From an uncultured Bacteroidales bacterium (GTDB lineage Bacteria; Bacteroidota; Bacteroidia; Bacteroidales; Muribaculaceae), in NCBI GenBank assembly GCA_902760865.1, contig CACWID010000021.1:1-47187 (forward strand): a stretch of 47,187 bases of DNA. The letters run 5' to 3'. Shown here one piece after another: positions 14,419 to 40,088 of the stretch. The position numbers and the translations under genes were made by a program. The notes beneath the pieces are model-generated. The model searched no databases. It saw only the letters and a list, made by a program, of their open reading frames with translations, and was not told the origin of the DNA. Within the stretch, counting starts at the first letter, position 1. The number at the start of each line of letters is the position of its first letter.

Positions 14419-15828
14419 TCAGTTGTCACCGAAGTCGATAGTCTGCGAGTCGCTGGTGGGGCGCCTGGTCGAAGCCTTGGGCACCTCGACGGGCTTCTCC
14501 TGGCTTGCGGCCTGCTGGCGCTCCTTAATCTGGGCGCGGAAGTCCTGTTTGCGCTTGTAGGTGGGCGTCTTCTCGATCATGTCGATGACATCGTCGTCGT
14601 CAAGCTCGTCGGGGGCGAGCACTATGTAGCGGGCACGCAGCTGGTTGAGCGTCAGCTCGCTGATGGCCTTGCTGCCGTACTCCACCTCGAGGCGCTCCTT
14701 GTCAGACATCCTGGGCTCGGCGGGAACAGGTTCACGCTTGCCGCTATAGACGCTGCTCACGGGAGCCTCCTTGTCGAGAGATACGCTGAAGCCCGATGCC
14801 AGCACGGTCACCTTGATCTGGTCCTCGAGCGTGTTGTCAAACGCCATACCCCAGATCACGTCAACCTCCTGGTCAAAGTTGGCCATGAACTCCTGAATCT
14901 CGTTCATCTCCTCCATCTTCAGGGGATACTCGCTCTCAGGATTGTAGTAGAAGTTCATCAGAATCTTCTGCGAGCCATACACGTCACGGTTCTTCAGCAA
15001 GGGTGACTCGAGGGCGTTCTCGATGGCCTTGGTCACACGGCGCTCACCCGTACCATAGCCCGAGCTGATGATGGCAGCGCCACCATTGCGCAGGGTGGTG
15101 TTCACGTCGTTGAAGTCCAGGTTGATCTTGCCCCTGACGGTAATCAGGTCACTGATGCTGCGGGCGGCAATGGTCAGCGTGTCGTCGGCCTTGCCGAAGG
15201 CGTTGGTGAAGTCCAAGTCACTGTAGATCTCGGTCAGACGCTGGTTGTTGATGATGAGCAGGGCATCGACATATTTGCCCATCTCGTCAGCACCGGAGAG
15301 CGCCTTGATAATCTTCTTGGGACCCTCGAACAGGAAGGGGATGGTCACGATACCGATGGTGAGGACGCCCTTCTCGTGGGCGATGCGTGCCACGACAGGA
15401 GCAGCACCCGTACCGGTGCCACCACCCATACCGGCGGTAATGAACACCATCTTGGTGTCGTCATCAAAGAGGGCAGCGATCTCAGCCTCACTCTCCTCGG
15501 CGGCACGGCGTGCCGTCTCGGGAATATTGCCGGCTCCCAGACCGTGGGTCGTGTTCGGGCCCAGCAGCACCCTGTTGGGCACCGGCGACTCGTTGAGCTG
15601 CTGCCGGTCGGTGTTGAGGACGACAAAGGAGACGCCCTCGATATTCTGCATATACATGTGGTTGATGGCATTGTTGCCGCCGCCACCGACGCCCATCACC
15701 TTGATGATGGTCTGGGGCGTGTCCTTGTCCTGGAAGCCCGAATTCTCGTCCAGCGTGGACAGGATGTCATGTCCCGGCCTGCGAGAGCCCGTGTTGTTGC
15801 CACCGAAGTTTATCTTGTTTTCTTCCAT
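14419..15828 (-). CDS. ftsZ: Cell division GTPase FtsZ
   Basis: Tubulin-like GTPase that polymerises into the division ring. The 469-residue protein has a short variable N-terminus (1-38), then the GTPase domain with MGVGGGGNNAINHM (45-58), NTDRQQL (72-78) and the signature GGGTGTGAAP (about 135-144), and the T7-like NLDFNDV. The C-terminal linker holds KTPTYKRKQ (about 420-428), which resembles the conserved C-terminal peptide that binds FtsA. Unusually, about 40 further residues of Gln, Glu and Ser-rich sequence follow it and end in TIDFGDN. It lies 55 nt after ftsA in the dcw operon. Confidence 0.97.
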   Translation of the reverse strand: MEENKINFGGNNTGSRRPGHDILSTLDENSGFQDKDTPQTIIKVMGVGGGGNNAINHMYMQNIEGVSFVVLNTDRQQLNESPVPNRVLLGPNTTHGLGAGNIPETARRAAEESEAEIAALFDDDTKMVFITAGMGGGTGTGAAPVVARIAHEKGVLTIGIVTIPFLFEGPKKIIKALSGADEMGKYVDALLIINNQRLTEIYSDLDFTNAFGKADDTLTIAARSISDLITVRGKINLDFNDVNTTLRNGGAAIISSGYGTGERRVTKAIENALESPLLKNRDVYGSQKILMNFYYNPESEYPLKMEEMNEIQEFMANFDQEVDVIWGMAFDNTLEDQIKVTVLASGFSVSLDKEAPVSSVYSGKREPVPAEPRMSDKERLEVEYGSKAISELTLNQLRARYIVLAPDELDDDDVIDMIEKTPTYKRKQDFRAQIKERQQAASQEKPVEVPKASTRRPTSDSQTIDFGDN

Positions 15829-15883
15829 ATTGCGATTGTGTTATTATTGTCGTTAACCTATATTGCGGGTAAATCCTGATCTA

Positions 15884-17212
15884 TTACTGCTCGTCGTCAT
15901 CGTCATCCTCGGTCATGATGCGGTTGATGCGATCCTTCAGACTCTTCATCCATCCGGGCTGCTTGTCGCCCTTCTTGGCTCGCTTGTCTTCCTTCTTGGG
16001 CTCGGCAGGGGTCCTCGGCGTTGTGTCTTGGGGCTTATAATTCTCTGGCATAATGGGACCCTCGACGACAGAGTTGAGTTCTACGCAGGTCTCGTCTTCC
16101 TTGATCTGCTCGGCTGCAGTGGCAAGCAGCGAGAAGATCTCGATGTACTCCATGCGGTTGATATCGCTGTTGAGGATATTGATCGTCGGCGGGTTCTGTC
16201 CCATGCGCACTTTGATCTTGATGGTTTCCTCAAGCTTCTGCTTCAGGCCGCCCAGGTGGGCACATCCGCCGATGAGGACGAGGCTCTTGATCTCGTCCGA
16301 AGAGACGTGGGCATCAGCCAACAGGTTGTTGATGTTGGCGATGATTTCACCTGTACGGGCGCTGATGTAGTTAGCGGCCTCACGGGCATTCACACCCTCG
16401 ATGACAACATTGCTGGCATTGACGGGATCGAGCGGATTGTTGATATTCTTCTTGACATTCTCGGCAGTCTCCTCCATGACGCCCAGACCGATCATGACAT
16501 CGCGCGTCATGTTGCGGCCGCCCAGCGGCAGGGTGTTGAGATAAATGAGCGCCTTGTTCTTGTAGATGGCCACGGTCGTGGTCTCGGCACCCATATCGAC
16601 GAGCATGCAGCCCAGCTCACGGTCACTGTCAGTGAGGATCTGCTCGCCCACGGCCAGCGGAGTCACGATATAGTCCTTAGCAGGAATGCCGAAGGTCATC
16701 AGACGGTTGAGGTTGAGCTTCAACGAGGGCTTGGCAACGATGAGGTTCACCTTGATCTTGATTGATGAGCCGAATTGTCCAACGGGGTTCGGGGTCTCGA
16801 CCTTGTCCACATAGAAGGCGCGCGGCACGATGTCGACCGTGTCGTGGTTGCGGACGGGATTGCTGGAGGCTTCCTTGATGATGCGCTCAATGAGTTCACG
16901 AGTGATGGCCTCGGTGGAGCCCACGCTGCGGTTCACCTCGCTGACGATGCTGTGCAGCGACCTGCCGCTGACACCAAGGTAAACCTGGGTGACGCGGCCA
17001 TCAATCATACCCTCAAGGTTCTTGAGGATGCGGTTGATGCTGCTCTTGACGTTCTCCACATTCTGAACAATGCCATAGCGCACGCAGTTGAGGTGGCGTT
17101 CCTCCTGCAGGTGCCTGATACTCAAGTATCCGGCCGAGGTTTTCTCGGCAATCGCTCCGACGATTTTAGAGCTACCGATTTCAAGTGCTACGATATATTG
17201 ATTCTTTTCCAT
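15884..17212 (-). CDS. ftsA: Cell division protein FtsA
   Basis: Actin-like ATPase that tethers FtsZ to the membrane and recruits the late divisome. The 442-residue product starts with the phosphate-1 motif VALEIGSSKIVGAIAE, and has LGCMLVDMGAETTTVAIY (phosphate 2, about 199-216) and VLIGGCAHLGGL (adenosine motif). A Lys- and Arg-rich tail with an amphipathic stretch (WMKSLKDRINRIM) ahead of the acidic end EDDDDDEQ is the likely membrane-targeting sequence. It lies 73 nt after ftsQ and 55 nt before ftsZ. Confidence 0.96.
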   Translation of the reverse strand: MEKNQYIVALEIGSSKIVGAIAEKTSAGYLSIRHLQEERHLNCVRYGIVQNVENVKSSINRILKNLEGMIDGRVTQVYLGVSGRSLHSIVSEVNRSVGSTEAITRELIERIIKEASSNPVRNHDTVDIVPRAFYVDKVETPNPVGQFGSSIKIKVNLIVAKPSLKLNLNRLMTFGIPAKDYIVTPLAVGEQILTDSDRELGCMLVDMGAETTTVAIYKNKALIYLNTLPLGGRNMTRDVMIGLGVMEETAENVKKNINNPLDPVNASNVVIEGVNAREAANYISARTGEIIANINNLLADAHVSSDEIKSLVLIGGCAHLGGLKQKLEETIKIKVRMGQNPPTINILNSDINRMEYIEIFSLLATAAEQIKEDETCVELNSVVEGPIMPENYKPQDTTPRTPAEPKKEDKRAKKGDKQPGWMKSLKDRINRIMTEDDDDDEQ

Positions 17213-33380: not shown

Positions 33381-33743
33381 TCAGCCCTGGGGCTGCTCGG
33401 CATTCTCGCGAGGACGGGCAAGCAGTTCAAACGTGTCGACGTAGATCTCGGTCGTGTAACGTTTCACCTGGTTGCGATCCTCCCACGCACGCGTGCGCAG
33501 ACGGCCCTCGAGATAAATCTGGGTGCCCTTGCGGATGAAGCGCTCGGCCACCTCGGCGTTCTTGCCCCACATGACGATATTGTGCCACTCGGTGCGTTCG
33601 GGGACCTCCACACCGTTAGCGTTCGTATAAGCTCGATCGGTTGTTGCCAGAGTAAACGAGGCAACAGGCTGGTTCTGTGCCACATAGCGCACATCGGGGT
33701 CCCTACCCACGCGGCCCAACAGAATGACTTTATTTACTGACAT
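33381..33743 (-). CDS. ssb: Single-stranded DNA-binding protein, short form
   Basis: OB-fold protein that coats single-stranded DNA in replication and repair. The 120 residues cover the whole fold: MSVNKVILLGRVGRDPDVRY, EWHNIVMWGKNAEVAERFI, KGTQIYLEGRLRTRAWED and the last strand up to about 110. What is missing is the C-terminal linker and acidic tip (DDIPF-like) that recruits partner proteins; the protein ends RPRENAEQPQG, and the bases after the stop codon do not encode a tip in this frame. It may be a secondary SSB, or a housekeeping SSB whose tail is lost. It is convergent with manC. Confidence 0.9.
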   Translation of the reverse strand: MSVNKVILLGRVGRDPDVRYVAQNQPVASFTLATTDRAYTNANGVEVPERTEWHNIVMWGKNAEVAERFIRKGTQIYLEGRLRTRAWEDRNQVKRYTTEIYVDTFELLARPRENAEQPQG

Positions 33744-33823: not shown

Positions 33824-34780
33824 CTAGCAGCCGGTGCCCTTCAGGGCCAGACCGGCTCGCTCATGCAGGCCGAACAGCAGGTTCATCATGTGAACAGCGG
33901 TGCCGGCACTACCCCTGAGCAGAAGGTCCATCACGGCATGTACCGTGAGGTCACCCGTGTGCTCGTCCTTCATCAGCGTGAGGAGACACTTGTTGGTGTT
34001 CTCCACGTCGGCGCTGACGATGGGACGGTCGGTCATGAAGACGAAGTTGTGATCGTCATAGTATTGCTCGTATAACTGCTTGACCTTCTCTGCGTCCAGG
34101 CCGCACTTGAAGCGGGCGGCAACAGCCAGCGTCCGTCGCTCGGCAAGCCGGCTGATGGACATTTCCACAGGCTGGTCGAAACCGGGCTGGCACTGTTCCA
34201 AGACTTTTACAACCTCGCATTGCTGCTCCTGGGTCCACTGGATGGCGGTCAGGCCGTCAAGTGTCTTCCCCTCGTCGGGAAAAGCCAGGTCGCCCATCGC
34301 CACTTGCAGGGTTATCGGGCTGTTGAGCAACAGATTGCGCGCCATGGGCATCAGAGCCAGCAACGACGCGATTGCTGCGTTGCCGGGCACGGTTACCAGT
34401 CGGGCATCATGCACGAGTACACGACGCTGCATCTCGCTCATGCCATAGGTCCACGGCAAAGCCTCTCCATGGTCCAGATTGTGGCTACCGCTCAGGTCGA
34501 TGACCTTGACATCCTCACCCAGCGCTGTAGATGAGAGGAATGCCGACGTATCGCTACGGTTGCCGCACAGGAACAGCACATCCGCAGCACCGGGATCGAC
34601 GCTCCGCGACACGACGAGGTCACACTCGCCGATGATACCGGGCACAATCTGGTCCAGACGCTTTCCAGCGCCGCAAGAGCCCGCCGCGCTGATCAACTCC
34701 ACGTCAGGATGGTTGATGAGCACGCGGACCAGTTCGGCGGCACGAGGACGGTCACAGTCAACAATCGCTGCTTTAATCAT
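33824..34780 (-). CDS. ArgC-like protein lacking catalytic residues (probable pseudoenzyme)
   Basis: The 318-residue protein is clearly homologous to N-acetyl-gamma-glutamyl-phosphate reductase along its length: ELVRVLINHPDVELI near the start, YGMSEMQRR (112-120), VENTNKCLLTL, and LLRGSAGTAVHMMNLLFGL at the end. But residues 7-14, where ArgC has the glycine-rich NADP motif GxxGYxG, read VDCDRPRA. At the active site the family's NPGC is VPGN (131-134), so the catalytic Cys is Asn134. The HxHxPE-type loop is TQEQQCE (183-189), with both His changed to Gln. The frame is intact, so it is not an ordinary decayed gene. It overlaps argR by 8 nt, and no other arginine gene is in the window. A non-catalytic, possibly regulatory role is inference. 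Confidence 0.85.
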   Translation of the reverse strand: MIKAAIVDCDRPRAAELVRVLINHPDVELISAAGSCGAGKRLDQIVPGIIGECDLVVSRSVDPGAADVLFLCGNRSDTSAFLSSTALGEDVKVIDLSGSHNLDHGEALPWTYGMSEMQRRVLVHDARLVTVPGNAAIASLLALMPMARNLLLNSPITLQVAMGDLAFPDEGKTLDGLTAIQWTQEQQCEVVKVLEQCQPGFDQPVEMSISRLAERRTLAVAARFKCGLDAEKVKQLYEQYYDDHNFVFMTDRPIVSADVENTNKCLLTLMKDEHTGDLTVHAVMDLLLRGSAGTAVHMMNLLFGLHERAGLALKGTGC

Positions 34781-35351
34781 CGGCAGCGTCGATCGGCTGA
34801 GTCGGAAGGCCTACAGACAAATGGGAATTCTTGGGCATGAACTGCTCAAAAACCGCACGGGCCTGCTCATGGGTAACACCCTCGGCCAGAATCGCTACCA
34901 CGGTGTCAGCACCGGCGATGGTGCCCAGCACCTCGGCGGGACGGCTCATGTCGATATCGTAAGCCAGACCGGGAGCATAACCGTTGCGCGTCTTGATGAC
35001 GGCCAGGTTACCCGAGAAGGTGACAGACACCAGACCCACCTGCTTGGCGGCGTGGGCATCGGTCTGACGCATACTCAGCAGCCTGTCCTGCAACTGGTTG
35101 CTGTCCGGAATAATGTACATGTAAGTGTTGCGGTCGGTAGCCACCTTCGAGATCTTCAAGGCCTTGAGGTCGCGCGACAATGTAGCCTGAGTCACATTGA
35201 TGTTGTGCTCACGCAGCATATCGGCCAACTCGCTCTGGCTGCCGATGCAATTTGTCTTGATCAAATCAGTGATCAATTGTAAGCGGTCACGTTTTCTTTT
35301 CACGAGTACTTTCTTTTTTCTAGGTTTCTTGGTTAATGTTGTAGTCTCCAT
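34773..35351 (-). CDS. argR: Arginine repressor ArgR, variant
   Basis: A 192-residue regulator. A basic N-terminal extension (1-20) precedes the winged helix DNA-binding domain (about 22-80) with TQATLSRDLKALKI, and the C-terminal hexamerisation and arginine-binding domain spans about 105-172. ArgR normally binds ARG boxes with arginine as corepressor. In the conserved effector loop GTIAGDDT of typical ArgR, this protein has GTIAGADT (143-150), so one of the two Asp that hold arginine (D128 in E. coli numbering, from memory) is Ala148. It is also longer than the usual 150-157 residues at both ends. It is co-transcribed with the ArgC-like gene, which overlaps it by 8 nt. Confidence 0.9.
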   Translation of the reverse strand: METTTLTKKPRKKKVLVKRKRDRLQLITDLIKTNCIGSQSELADMLREHNINVTQATLSRDLKALKISKVATDRNTYMYIIPDSNQLQDRLLSMRQTDAHAAKQVGLVSVTFSGNLAVIKTRNGYAPGLAYDIDMSRPAEVLGTIAGADTVVAILAEGVTHEQARAVFEQFMPKNSHLSVGLPTQPIDAADD

Positions 35352-35594
35352 TTTACATATACACTTAAAAATAGGTTATTTGGATTAGATATCAACAATC
35401 GCACGGCAATGCCGCTGATGTCGTATCAATAATTATGTCATGCAAAGGTAAATACTTTTTTGCAAAACCAACAACATATTTATTGATTTTTTCACCCCAA
35501 AATGACAAATCCCATGAATTTTAATGAAATATTCATCTATTTCGGTAAGGTCAATATTACAGGCAGGTTATCTTTTATATATATTCAAGTCTGT
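35352..35594. other. AT-rich gap between argR and the patatin-like gene
   Basis: It holds the argR promoter region. No other gene or strong structure is seen, and no clear terminator follows the patatin-like gene, which ends at 35595 and is transcribed toward argR. Confidence 0.5.
35425..35450 (-). promoter_or_regulatory. argR promoter box with possible ARG-box-like site
   Basis: On the minus strand TACCTTTG (35450-35443) matches TAnnTTTG, 92 nt before the argR ATG. Just downstream, 35440-35425 reads TGACATAATTATTGAT, which partly resembles the 16-18-bp palindromic ARG box. Autoregulation would fit the position. The match is imperfect. Confidence 0.4.
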
Positions 35595-37205
35595 TCAACC
35601 TTTTCTGGGAACCATCCATCGGGGATCCTGCTGAAAGCGCTCCCAGGCTTCAAGCAGCTGGTCTTTCAGGGCGATGAGGGTGTGATGGCCGGCCGTGAGG
35701 TCAACCGGATTCTCCTCGATCCTGAGAATATACTTGAGCAGGTTGTAGCACATCGTGTACTGGCCCGCAGCAAGCAGGGCCTGGGGCATGCCGTTGGACT
35801 TCTCTTCGTCGGTAAACCACAATGTCGTGCCCATGCTGGCGGCGAGGGCGCTATTCTGCTGCATGGCCTCGCTCGGCGTGAGGAAGGCCGTGCGCGAGCC
35901 GTCCTTGTGCAGGCCTCGCCACTGTTCGCCGGGCCGCAGCTCATAGACGGTGCTCGACATGACCCGGTCCTTCCACTGCTCGTCCTCGTAGAGGGCATCG
36001 TAGTTCACTTGGCGCAGGCGCTTGAGGAAGACCTCACTGCTCATCATGAGGACCGACTTGGCGCGGTTCATCACCATGGCGGCAAGGGTGGAGAACTTCA
36101 GGTGGCTGATAAAGGTGGCCCTATTGCCCACAAAGGTCCCGGCCAGCGTACTGAAGAGCTTGTTCTTGGCAACCGCTCCGAGGATATTGGCTCCGGCAAC
36201 GATGGCCAGGATGACCGACATCACGCCCAGCCAGAAATCACTGCCCAGCACCAGGGCAACGATAAACAGCACCATCACGACGGCCAGTGAAATCAGGCCG
36301 TAGTTGCGCAGCCGACCGATGGTCAAGAGGCCGGCTTTCTTGGAGAGCAAGTCCTTGCTGGGCTTGTAACCGTCCATATAGGGGCTGGCCACATCGCTGA
36401 CGATAATGAGGTCAAAGGCCTTGTCGGTACGGGTCTTGTCTTCACGATACTTGCGCATGCGCTTCTCGGCGAGCAGGATGGGATCGATGCCCTGGTTATC
36501 GACAACGCCGCCGTCCATGAGGCCGAAACGCTTCGTGATGCCGCTGGCGATGTCCTCCCGGGTTGACACCTTGAAGTCGTCTGGGAACATCATCGGCTCG
36601 AAACCGCTGGGGAAACACGATGAACAGGCCAACGCCTCTCCCAGGGTGATGTAGCGGACGACACTGCGCCCGATGCTGTGCCGCTGGTTGCCGAACACAC
36701 CGTAACTGATCCGTGAGTTGTCGGTCATGCGGCCCTCCGTCAAGCGGAAGCGGAAGGGCAACGAGTTGTCAAAGTCGGTGGCCAGCGCTGTATAGTCCTT
36801 GACGGGAATGCGGCCAAAGTTGTCGATGATTTCGCCCATCGCCGCGCCGCCGAACAGGTATTTATCATAGATTTCGGCCATGATCTTGATGCTCGAGGCG
36901 TCGGGGTTGGCCTTCTCTTCACTCAGGCGGCTCAGGGCGTGCTCCACCAGGTCCTCGTTGCACAGGAAGGCGAACAGTTCGTTCACCATGTCCTCCACTT
37001 TCTCGCCACGGGCCTTTGTCAACATGTATTTCAACGCCGGGATGGTGCCGCCCGACACCGACGTGAGCGCCGTGACGCAGTCCAGCAGCGTGCGGCCGTC
37101 GTCCAAACGCACGGAGTTCAGCATCGAGAGCGCACCTAGGTCAAAGGTGGCTGCCCGATAGCCTCCACCGGAGAATGTTAAGCCTATGTTCAGTTCGTTG
37201 TCCAT
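35595..37205 (-). CDS. Patatin-like lipase with C-terminal membrane segments
   Basis: A 536-residue protein whose N-terminal half is a patatin/cPLA2-like lipid acyl hydrolase. The oxyanion loop is SGGGYRA (12-18), the nucleophile serine is Ser51 in SVSGGT, and the catalytic Asp is Asp231 in LMDGGVVDNQG. Two hydrophobic segments (about 285-330) follow, then a C-terminal region of about 200 residues that I do not recognise. No signal peptide is visible, so the catalytic half is probably cytoplasmic and held at the membrane. The start at 37205 is chosen because a good TTTG-N20-TACCTTTG promoter lies just upstream, inside a longer open frame. It appears monocistronic. The natural substrate is unknown; phospholipase or toxin-like activity is possible. 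Confidence 0.85.
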   Translation of the reverse strand: MDNELNIGLTFSGGGYRAATFDLGALSMLNSVRLDDGRTLLDCVTALTSVSGGTIPALKYMLTKARGEKVEDMVNELFAFLCNEDLVEHALSRLSEEKANPDASSIKIMAEIYDKYLFGGAAMGEIIDNFGRIPVKDYTALATDFDNSLPFRFRLTEGRMTDNSRISYGVFGNQRHSIGRSVVRYITLGEALACSSCFPSGFEPMMFPDDFKVSTREDIASGITKRFGLMDGGVVDNQGIDPILLAEKRMRKYREDKTRTDKAFDLIIVSDVASPYMDGYKPSKDLLSKKAGLLTIGRLRNYGLISLAVVMVLFIVALVLGSDFWLGVMSVILAIVAGANILGAVAKNKLFSTLAGTFVGNRATFISHLKFSTLAAMVMNRAKSVLMMSSEVFLKRLRQVNYDALYEDEQWKDRVMSSTVYELRPGEQWRGLHKDGSRTAFLTPSEAMQQNSALAASMGTTLWFTDEEKSNGMPQALLAAGQYTMCYNLLKYILRIEENPVDLTAGHHTLIALKDQLLEAWERFQQDPRWMVPRKG

Positions 37206-37224
37206 GTCATCGCAGATTTTTCCA

Positions 37225-37256
37225 CAAAGGTAATGAAAAGCGCCAATAATGCCAAA
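37225..37256 (-). promoter_or_regulatory. Promoter of the patatin-like gene
   Basis: On the minus strand TTTG (37256-37253), a 20-nt spacer and TACCTTTG (37232-37225) form a near-ideal Bacteroidota promoter. The implied leader is only about 10-15 nt. It fixes the start codon at 37205, because the upstream in-frame ATG at 37319 would not be transcribed. Confidence 0.75.
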
Positions 37257-37278
37257 GCGCCAGGCCAAAAAACAAGAA

Positions 37279-37312
37279 CAGACCTCCCGCAACGGGAAGT
37301 CTGCCCTTTTTT
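37279..37312. terminator. Terminator after the first dockerin gene
   Basis: CAGACCTCCCG (37279-37289) pairs with CGGGAAGTCTG (37293-37303), 11 bp with one mismatch and a 3-nt loop. T-rich runs lie on both sides, so it can serve the minus-strand gene that ends at 37360. Confidence 0.75.
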
Positions 37313-37359
37313 CAGTCACACGGGCGCCAAGTTCTGGGGCGCCGCGCTTGCAGTCGGTT

Positions 37360-38844
37360 TTAGTCCTCAGCAGTGCCGCTCAGCAGGATGTTGATCAGAG
37401 CGGTCACGTCACTGATGTTCACCGTGCCAGAGTGGTTCACGTCGGCCTCGACAGGCATGTCCTCGGCATTGGTAAGCAGCAGGTTGATCAGGGCGGTCAC
37501 ATCGGCGATGCTCACCTTCCAGTCGTGGTTCACGTCACCGGCCTTGTACTCGGTGGCAATGGTCACGGTCACCGTGTAGCAGCGCACCTGAGAATTGATC
37601 ACGAAGGAGACCTCATTGTCGATACCTTCCCACGTGCCATCAGAGCCGCCTGTGGTGTAGGTTCCCGACTGGCCCTCGGGCAGCGACAGGTTGCTGGGCG
37701 TGTAGCCGCTGATGCCGTCGAACTCGATTTTCAGGATGGGGGCTCCGGCCGAGGTAAACTTCAGTGCCGACTCGGCGCCGCCATAGATGCGGTAGTGGTC
37801 GCTATAGACCGTACCGTCACCGACGAACATCGTAACCGGGCCTTTCACGATGGTATAGGCATGGCGGTTGGTGTCGCCGTCGCCCTTGTCCACAGTAGCG
37901 TCAAAGGTCACATCAACGATTGTGGGGGGCAGCTTGGTGTAGGTGGCGCTCACTACCTCGCTCTCCACGTCACCCACCTTGGCCTTGGCATAGATGGTCA
38001 GGTCTTCGGTCACGGGGATGGGGTCGATGTACTGGCTCCACTGTTCCTGGTCCAGGCTGTAGTAGATCGTGGCACCCGGGGTGGCACAAGCCAGCGTCAC
38101 CTCCAGGCGGTCCTGGAAGCCGCACGATGCGGGCGTGAACACGGGAGCCTCGACAGTCTGCTCCACCTTGGTGAAGGTGACGGTCACATACTCGCTTATT
38201 TCGCCGCCCTTGCTGGAATAGGCCGTGAAGGTCTTGGTCTCGGTTACATAGAAGGGGCGGCTATAGTATGACCAGTTGGCCCAGTCGCCATCGGGTTCGC
38301 CCTCAAAGTAATAGATCTCGGCGTTCTCGGTCGGGCAGGTCAGCGTCACCTCCAGGCTGCCGGTGAACTCGCCGCCATCGGGATGGAACACGGGAGGAAC
38401 GAGCTCGGTGACAATCGGCTCCTCGATGGTAACGACAATCTGATAGACCCTCGACTGGGATGCAAGATTCAGCTCAACGGCTTCGGCTGGCTCACCCTGC
38501 CAGATGCCCACGTTGCTGCCCGAGTGGCAGCTGTAGCCGTCACCATAGAACTGGTCCGGGCCGTAGCTCTGGGAATAAGATCCCTGGCAGGTGATTTCCA
38601 CCTTCTTGATGTTACCCACAGTCGATTTGATCGCAGTCTTGCTACCGCCACCGAAGCGGTAGGGATTGGTGGCAAACGCGCCACTGGTGCAGGTGATGGT
38701 CACCCCGTCGAGTTCCATCACGTCAAAAGCATTGGCTGCCAAGTTGTTACCAATAGTAGTTCCGGCAACAAAGGTCACGTTCATGTCTGCCCATGCCGAC
38801 AGCGCCAGCAGAGCAACAAAAAGAAGAGAAAATACTTTTTTCAT
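37360..38844 (-). CDS. Secreted protein with duplicated beta domain, two CHB_HEX_C-like repeats and dockerin
   Basis: A 494-residue exported protein with a signal peptide 1-19 (MKKVFSLLFVALLALSAWA). Domain A spans about 22-118. Two chitobiase/beta-hexosaminidase C-terminal-like repeats follow (about 123-210 and 215-305, each with PVFxPxxxxF...LEVTL and ATIYYSLD-type strands). A second copy of domain A spans about 308-425; both copies end in a VRCYTVTVTI or SRVYQIVVTI strand. Last is a dockerin-like pair of calcium-loop repeats (DVNHDWKVSIADVTALINLLL and a second copy, about 432-494). No catalytic motif is seen, so it is probably an adhesin or scaffold-bound protein. It has its own promoter box and terminator. 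Confidence 0.85.
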   Translation of the reverse strand: MKKVFSLLFVALLALSAWADMNVTFVAGTTIGNNLAANAFDVMELDGVTITCTSGAFATNPYRFGGGSKTAIKSTVGNIKKVEITCQGSYSQSYGPDQFYGDGYSCHSGSNVGIWQGEPAEAVELNLASQSRVYQIVVTIEEPIVTELVPPVFHPDGGEFTGSLEVTLTCPTENAEIYYFEGEPDGDWANWSYYSRPFYVTETKTFTAYSSKGGEISEYVTVTFTKVEQTVEAPVFTPASCGFQDRLEVTLACATPGATIYYSLDQEQWSQYIDPIPVTEDLTIYAKAKVGDVESEVVSATYTKLPPTIVDVTFDATVDKGDGDTNRHAYTIVKGPVTMFVGDGTVYSDHYRIYGGAESALKFTSAGAPILKIEFDGISGYTPSNLSLPEGQSGTYTTGGSDGTWEGIDNEVSFVINSQVRCYTVTVTIATEYKAGDVNHDWKVSIADVTALINLLLTNAEDMPVEADVNHSGTVNISDVTALINILLSGTAED

Positions 38845-39146: not shown

Positions 39147-40037
39147 TCAACCAGCACTCAGCAGCAAGACAATCAGCGAGGTGACATCGCCGATGTTGAT
39201 TCTGGTATCTTCGTTCACATCGGCATTCACTGCATAGAAGTTGTTGGGATTACTGCTCAGCAGATAGTTGATCAGGGACGTCACGTCAGCGATTGTCACA
39301 TAGCCGTCGCCGTTGACATCGCCGAGCAGTCTCTCGTAGGTGTAGCCGATCTCGGTAACAGGCAGGTCAACATTGGTACCGCAACCTAGCATGGCACTGG
39401 CGTTGGGGAAGCTACTGCCCATGGCATAGTCAACAAAGCTGACCCAATTGTCGGTATAGGTCATCGCCTTGCCCCGAATGCCCGAGGTGTAGAACGGTGC
39501 ATAGGAGCTGCCCATCGTGCAGTTGTCGTCATCCTCGGCATCAAAGACGATGGTCACTACCAGGCTCTTGCCCAGCGTGAACGGGAAATCGGCCTCCATT
39601 TCCATGGCCAGGACCTGGTCCTCACCATAGGATTCAAGCAATTCCAGGTCGTAGCGGCCCTCGGCAACAAGTTCGCCGAGAGGGAAGAATTGCTTCACGC
39701 CATCCTCATTGACGGCGAACTCGGTCGCATCAACCTCCTGAAGATAAACCTTGGCATTGCGGACAATCTCCTCAAAGGATTCATTATAGAACTTGAAATT
39801 CAGGTACTTGATCTTCACGCCGTCCTTGCCTTCCATGCCAGGCAGCAAGTCGGGCGTGTAAATCATCTGCGCTCCGGTGTGGGCCAGATAGAAGTTGGTC
39901 GGCGCCATGTCAAAGTAAGAGCCGTCGTAAACCTCCGTGGGGTTGTAGTAGTCCCCTACCTCAATCCAACCAAGGAACTGGGCCTGTGCCGACATCGCCA
40001 GCACAGCAACAAAGAAGAGAGATAAAAACTTTTTCAT
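39147..40037 (-). CDS. Secreted beta-rich protein with C-terminal dockerin
   Basis: The start at 40037 gives 296 residues with a signal peptide 1-19 (MKKFLSLFFVAVLAMSAQA). An in-frame ATG two codons upstream only adds Met-Ile. The body (about 20-230) is beta-strand rich and acidic, with no family I recognise and no catalytic motif. The C-terminus is a dockerin-like pair: GDVNGDGYVTIADVTSLINY and NADVNEDTRINIGDVTSLIV, each with the Asp/Asn-rich calcium loop followed by a helix. It probably acts as a cell-surface or scaffold-bound protein. It has the clearest promoter in the window. Confidence 0.85.
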   Translation of the reverse strand: MKKFLSLFFVAVLAMSAQAQFLGWIEVGDYYNPTEVYDGSYFDMAPTNFYLAHTGAQMIYTPDLLPGMEGKDGVKIKYLNFKFYNESFEEIVRNAKVYLQEVDATEFAVNEDGVKQFFPLGELVAEGRYDLELLESYGEDQVLAMEMEADFPFTLGKSLVVTIVFDAEDDDNCTMGSSYAPFYTSGIRGKAMTYTDNWVSFVDYAMGSSFPNASAMLGCGTNVDLPVTEIGYTYERLLGDVNGDGYVTIADVTSLINYLLSSNPNNFYAVNADVNEDTRINIGDVTSLIVLLLSAG

Positions 40038-40088
40038 AATCAAGACAGATTAAAAGATAACTATATGAATAACAAGCAGAATCTCCCA

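Follow-up and report, generated by a model that had tools for sequence, protein, structure and literature searches.

The window analysed here, a 47,187-nucleotide stretch from an uncultured Bacteroidales bacterium of the Muribaculaceae (contig CACWID010000021.1), carries a homologue of the arginine-pathway reductase ArgC which, judging from its sequence, is almost certainly a pseudoenzyme of the ArgC family. We label this open reading frame, at positions 33824–34780, argC*. It lies on the minus strand, as do all features of the window described below, with an ATG at 34780 and a stop codon ending at 33824. Its intact frame of 318 amino acids bears out an earlier, sequence-only reading of this DNA, which had not given the strand. 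Both Pfam domains, Semialdhyde_dh and Semialdhyde_dhC_1, score above their gathering thresholds and far beyond chance, and the ArgC/ASADH fold is indicated by profile search, by an AlphaFold2 prediction (mean predicted local distance difference test, pLDDT, 94.4) and by fold matches. Against the NCBIfam argC equivalog TIGR01850, the protein reaches 117.9 bits, half of the cut-off of 233.6 set for an ArgC enzyme. Our analysis suggests that the dead enzyme has acquired a new role, probably a regulatory one.

The catalytic elements were compared with canonical ArgC of the same order, using an alignment and column tallies. Where canonical relatives have the glycine-rich NADP motif GGAGYTAG, argC* reads VDCDRPRA (residues 7–14; 34739–34762), with D8 and R11 at canonical glycine positions. 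VPGN (131–134; 34379–34390) replaces the NPGC of ArgC, with Asn134 at the position of the catalytic Cys, and TQEQQCE (183–189; 34214–34234) corresponds to the HxHxxE loop, which has become QEQQCE and retains Glu alone. All three replacements are located at the residues given in the sequence-only reading. Its statement that the remaining fold is conserved holds as well, since YGMSE, NTNK and GSAGTAVHMMNLLFGL are found at conserved columns; in an alignment of 88 rows, P132 and P145 are invariant and E189 is nearly so. Compared with characterised ArgC (TIGR01850; structures 1vkn, 1xyg, 2i3a and 7nnq), argC* is devoid of Cys, HxH, GxxG and Arg101, and thus appears to belong to the family as a pseudoenzyme lacking the sequence features of ArgC catalysis.

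In addition, argC* has gained the motif V-H-D (123–125; 34406–34414). Its H-D pair occurs in 50 of 67 Cys-less proteins, while the canonical Muribaculaceae rows compared mostly have R-G. The C-terminal core (237–314; 33839–34072), which includes YYDDHNF, NTNKC and GSAGTAVHMMNLLFGLHER, is built of residues common to argC* and canonical Muribaculaceae ArgC. At the very end of the protein, Cys is frequent in argC* of close relatives (29 of the 39 proteins with a GL(A/S/T)LK tail; window positions 33824–33840), where canonical rows end mostly in Phe or Tyr.

The same loss is found throughout the close relatives. Their records come from rumen and gut and bear the labels Muribaculaceae, Prevotellaceae, Porphyromonadaceae or Bacteroidales. 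Among 37 genomes of the genus, argC* is present in 33, its own genome included, and none of the 33 copies has the Cys. Orthologues with intact Cys and His would have reduced the loss to a local error; instead, it is a clade-wide dead enzyme, a stronger case than the sequence alone could have revealed. As for the remaining genomes, G004 and G031 hold canonical ArgC alone, G009 and G016 hold neither form, and G022 holds canonical ArgC in addition to argC*. It is possible that argC* of G022 is a contamination, because it resides on a 4.7-kb contig. The canonical ArgC of G004, G022 and G031 is located in a separate arg cluster.

To these we added the best 80 of 131 relatives from a scan of GTDB species genomes, a choice that favours argC*. 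The pooled comparison comprised 109 distinct proteins, namely 67 Cys-less, 31 canonical and 11 of a form termed C_HQ, which retains the Cys, the first His and the glycine motif but has Gln in place of the second His. Across the Cys-less proteins, the Cys column is occupied by N, P, D, S, A, G, E, T, K, I or V, and 44 of these proteins have Gln in place of the second His. At the level of alignment columns, no substitute residue emerges that could have taken over catalysis. The claim that every recognisable catalytic element has been lost stands for the gene in the window, but not for all of its relatives: in seven of the 67, one or both of the loop positions are still His (both in L096), the GxxG position is still Gly in six, and the Arg101 column is retained in 16.

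In the ArgC tree, C_HQ proteins join the Cys-less group (fork support 88/90), within which divergence is deep, and two changes between Cys-less and Cys-bearing forms are required. For the ArgR tree (86 distinct rows of 106), three switches between Cys-less and Cys-bearing partners have to be assumed, which could be losses or gains and concern a 61-row clade, L119 and L041; L041, L119 and L107 form long branches. L041 originates from a genome of another family (G057), in which argB is unmatched and argG and argH are not over cut-off. The simplest reading of the ArgR tree would be separate losses of the Cys, with a single origin as a possible alternative. Three records of metagenome-assembled genomes labelled Clostridiales, Paenibacillus and Clostridium (L096, L109 and L119) have ArgC, and L119 also ArgR, among Bacteroidales rows, and are probably mislabelled. 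Muribaculaceae Isolate-110 (L116; 8001–8969, plus strand, and 15243–16202, minus strand) has both a C_HQ ArgC, behind gltX, and a canonical one at a distance of about 6 kb.

In regard to the origin of the present gene order, the fuller operons of L103, L113 (Muribaculum-labelled), L126 and L129 read argR-GNAT-argG-argC-argD-proC-ssb. Automatic placement covered 53 Cys-less loci. The order is argR-argC*-ssb in 44 of them; in two others (L077, L089) argR was found by BLAST, in three (L092, L119, L131) argR is present with ssb not next to it, and four (L093, L096, L107, L127) have no argR alongside. In the window, ssb (33381–33743), which follows argD-proC in the fuller operons, serves as the downstream marker of the deletion by locus comparison and domain search. 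The ancestral operon was thus gutted to argR-argC*-ssb, with the genes flanking argC removed and argC left in place. Other outcomes are argR-ssb without argC* in G004 and G031, whose arginine genes lie elsewhere, and the C_HQ loci, where ArgC is located behind gltX or the gene after gltX, and argR, GNAT and argG are gone.

Arginine synthesis by the known route seems to be missing in the host, as far as gene content can tell. In its genome (95% complete), argG, argH and canonical ArgC are unmatched and argB has only a divergent match. Within the genus, a full-length argG match is present in three genomes (G004, G022, G031) at 241–243 bits, under the model cut-off of 268.2, as are the matches of several other genomes of the order. 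The same three are the only ones with argB over cut-off, argH is over cut-off in two of the 37, and ornithine carbamoyltransferase is over cut-off in 31, never in G004, G022 or G031. Single absences may be assembly gaps, but the pattern is consistent. The host also has an arginine deiminase operon (L149:8205–11719, minus strand), with arcA, arcB and an arcC-like amino-acid kinase gene in succession.

Contig C7 of the same genome (L143:2715–3482, minus strand) appears to encode another arginine enzyme that has been eroded and yet retained. This orphan ArgB-like amino-acid kinase reaches 115.6 bits to argB (cut-off 151.3) and, by eye, has SGK for the GGN-type GGK/GGN and FSGN for HGGG. Among the 34 genomes of the genus that lack argG, 28 have a full-length match under cut-off, and in G000 and G003 the gene adjoins those of an aspartate-semialdehyde dehydrogenase and a release-factor-like protein.

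Directly in front of argC* and overlapping it by 8 nt lies argR (34773–35351), whose product is an arginine repressor with the domains Arg_repressor (PF01316; 76.3 bits, cut-off 27) and Arg_repressor_C (PF02863; 59.8 bits, cut-off 25). In all 33 genus genomes carrying argC*, it is placed directly behind argR, and among 43 loci the two genes overlap by 4 or 8 nt in 21, are separated by 0–52 nt in another 21, and by 117 nt in one. ArgR controls arginine synthesis and catabolism via ARG boxes (PMC4865122), and a review of pseudoenzymes (PMC10211241) presents them as scaffolds, switches and allosteric regulators.

Our best guess, with a probability of roughly 0.4, is that argC* is a non-catalytic, ArgR-linked co-regulator. 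According to this model, a former N-acyl-glutamyl-phosphate reductase, its native operon gutted and its active site gone, would be expressed together with ArgR as a two-gene unit, probably autoregulated by ArgR. The C-terminal core and the remodelled former substrate pocket could allow ArgC* to bind ArgR and/or a metabolite, and this binding might tune the DNA binding of ArgR in a Gal80/Gal4-like manner, both the ligand and the output being presumptive. Somewhat less likely, this might amount to a new arginine-responsive control, in which the dead enzyme would be a dedicated ArgR partner with its active site as the sensor pocket, and which would have evolved repeatedly in Bacteroidales once the operon was gutted to argR-argC*.

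Autoregulation would be consistent with the region upstream of argR. The sequence TACCTTTG (35443–35450) resembles what we take to be the consensus of the Bacteroidales -7 promoter element, and TAnCTTTGC is common to 16 aligned argR upstream regions. A site upstream of it, GATGAATATTTCATTAAAATTCA (35515–35537), was recognised by alignment and scan and is similar to what is presumably the ARG box consensus. At least 18 of its 23 bases are present in 10 of the 16 relatives (own included), and the 23-mer is unique in its own genome when up to 3 mismatches are allowed. In a leave-one-out matrix scan, 12 of the 16 regions beat all 100 shuffles, with the best match of L076 and L081 located elsewhere. 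A 17-mer with 3 mismatches has 39 sites in the genome, compared with 10 for the reversed control. In ArgR itself, the window and the Muribaculaceae-labelled relatives compared have GADT (G(A/P/S)xADT type), while Barnesiella and other families have GDDT; the Asp-Asp pair contacts arginine in E. coli ArgR. A lost arginine pocket was considered and rejected, as GADT also accompanies canonical ArgC in Muribaculaceae-labelled records and the Cys-less L041 has GDDT.

Several observations weigh against a tie between argC* and ArgR. The genomes of the Cys-less L093, L096, L107 and L127 have no match to the ArgR C-domain, and neither do any of the 11 C_HQ genomes, 7 of which have argG. Conversely, G004, G016 and G031 have ArgR without argC*. 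The linkage seen in 33 of 33 copies inside the genus is not kept by these Cys-less relatives outside of it, and the adjacency may simply be inherited. Furthermore, argG is present in the Cys-less G022 and in the genomes of L093, L096, L119 and L127, and pathway loss is therefore not a strict condition for the loss of the Cys. In 6 of the 16 relatives, the ARG-box-like site is poorly matched or absent. ArgR control of the arginine deiminase operon also found no support in the matrix scan, with a box beyond 100 shuffles before arcA in none of 15 regions (two further regions, with weak arcA similarity, were set aside) and before arcB in one of 19 (that of L154, with one region empty). Between arcA and arcB of the host genome, a 3-mismatch site does occur, and ATATTCA-like letters can be seen by eye at that place in several relatives.

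Evolutionary rates point in the same direction. Given SSB, the distance partial correlation between ArgR and ArgC* is 0.77 (41 loci), and the branch-wise rate covariation at these loci is 0.49 for ArgC*-ArgR, 0.35 for ArgR-SSB and 0.23 for ArgC*-SSB. At 28 loci, however, the control pair ArgC*-GMP (r 0.71) exceeded ArgC*-ArgR (r 0.44). The pairwise distance signal is hence not specific, and we rejected specific ArgR-ArgC* co-evolution as evidence. The earlier suggestion that argC* is a partner of the overlapping ArgR remains plausible on account of the adjacency and close spacing, but the ArgR-free relatives, the unspecific covariation, the nearly box-free arc regions and the occurrence of ArgR without argC* leave it a best guess and not a result.

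Close behind stands the possible alternative that argC* is a conserved non-catalytic protein, such as a ligand binder, a scaffold or a moonlighting factor, which acts independently of ArgR and has argR next to it as an ancestral operon remnant. The ArgR-free Cys-less and C_HQ genomes fit this explanation, as does the covariation not being specific to ArgR, and the C-terminal core residues are shared with C_HQ rows and with the Cys-less relatives from ArgR-free genomes. It sits less easily with the adjacency to argR in every genus copy despite operon deletion on both sides, with the overlapping or tight spacing, and with G009, where both genes are missing. The latter genome (94% complete), in which argR and argC* are unmatched but arcA, arcB and the ArgB-like gene are present, could be a natural knock-out of the pair.

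It is unlikely that argC* is a slowly decaying relic whose fold lingers through the cost of misfolding or through a dependence of argR mRNA or its translation. Pairwise dN/dS (the ratio of nonsynonymous to synonymous substitution rates) was calculated by the Nei-Gojobori method for unsaturated pairs, using 34 of the 67 Cys-less genes, 14 of the 31 canonical and all 11 C_HQ. The median was 0.192 for argC* (31 pairs), 0.063 for canonical ArgC (25 pairs) and 0.125 for C_HQ (23 pairs). The threefold increase over canonical ArgC would suit a relic, as would the loop deletions in argC* and its absence from G004, G009, G016 and G031. The values are nonetheless far from 1, the mark of decay named in the sequence-only reading, and span 0.07–0.28 among the 18 argC* pairs listed; argC* is under purifying selection.

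Constraint is also specific to regions, which were compared for pairs at 0.35–0.60 overall identity. Identity in the catalytic loop (151–200) drops from 0.631 among canonical pairs (160) to 0.252 among argC* pairs (1189), whereas in the C-terminal core it is 0.614 and 0.586, respectively; over residues 1–150, too, identity is higher among canonical pairs (0.556) than among argC* pairs (0.414). The early-branching or long Cys-less rows (L041, L093, L096, L107, L119, L127) were excluded from these and from the residue statistics of argC*, and L046 from the canonical set of the regional comparison. Constraint has thus been relaxed in the catalytic loop, while the C-terminal core has retained it. 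Together with the gained H-D pair, the deep divergence within the Cys-less group, and the open frames of all 67 proteins (though an open frame was the entry condition for this set), such a pattern argues against a relic. The interpretation of argC* as a maintained pseudoenzyme, and not plain decay, is well supported by the loss shared by 67 of 109 proteins, the dN/dS of about 0.19 and the regional constraint.

A new enzyme with different chemistry in the old pocket is very improbable. H244, K264, C265 and H297 do not vary across the 61 argC* rows that were weighed, and a new active site formed by H244, C265 and H297 was considered. It was rejected because these polar residues are not new, being present also in the canonical Muribaculaceae rows compared; moreover, the dinucleotide motif, the Arg101 column and the catalytic loop vary freely. 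Finally, a reductase that still works in the arginine pathway, its catalytic residues displaced, would agree with the predicted intact fold, but this explanation, like a sequencing error, is hardly credible, as no single residue substitutes at the Cys column, 34 of the 37 genus genomes lack an argG match and argB over cut-off, 35 lack argH over cut-off, and the loss is common to many separate assemblies.

In mode of action, the closest parallel is the yeast protein Gal80, which has an oxidoreductase-like fold and binds Gal4. It is named among regulators thought to have descended from enzymes (PMC3602430). In its proposed role, argC* would likewise be a non-catalytic protein of oxidoreductase fold that is linked to a transcription factor, although Gal80 belongs to another enzyme family, and argC* is known from sequence, with the ArgR contact and ligand only proposed. 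Another parallel is yeast Arg5,6, a bifunctional kinase/reductase that reportedly binds DNA; it likewise gives an ArgC-type reductase a regulatory second role, but is still catalytic and comes from a different kingdom. A further likeness is the C_HQ ArgC of Duncaniella-labelled and similar records, which groups with Cys-less ArgC and was also left from a gutted operon, but differs in its retained Cys, first His and glycine motif and in the lack of an ArgR match. A term search of the pseudoenzyme review (PMC10211241) returned no mention of ArgC, and the open-licence PMC literature searched held no report of a dead ArgC or of argC in Muribaculaceae.

Upstream of argR, on the same strand, the window carries a gene for a patatin-like phospholipase (PF01734) with a hydrophobic stretch (35595–37319). 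It is accompanied by genes for two secreted-looking proteins (37360–38844 and 39147–40043) whose duplicated GDVN..ADVT.LI ends are, by eye, dockerin-like.

The argC* gene offers a clean natural case of an enzyme that has survived the loss of its pathway in pseudoenzyme form; related genomes hold canonical ArgC, a half-eroded form (with the Cys but no longer the second His) and the dead form. In gut and rumen Muribaculaceae, an argC annotation need not imply arginine prototrophy. If the link to ArgR is true, it would show how a metabolic enzyme turns into a co-regulator of bacterial transcription, and what the job of ArgR is in cells that no longer make arginine.
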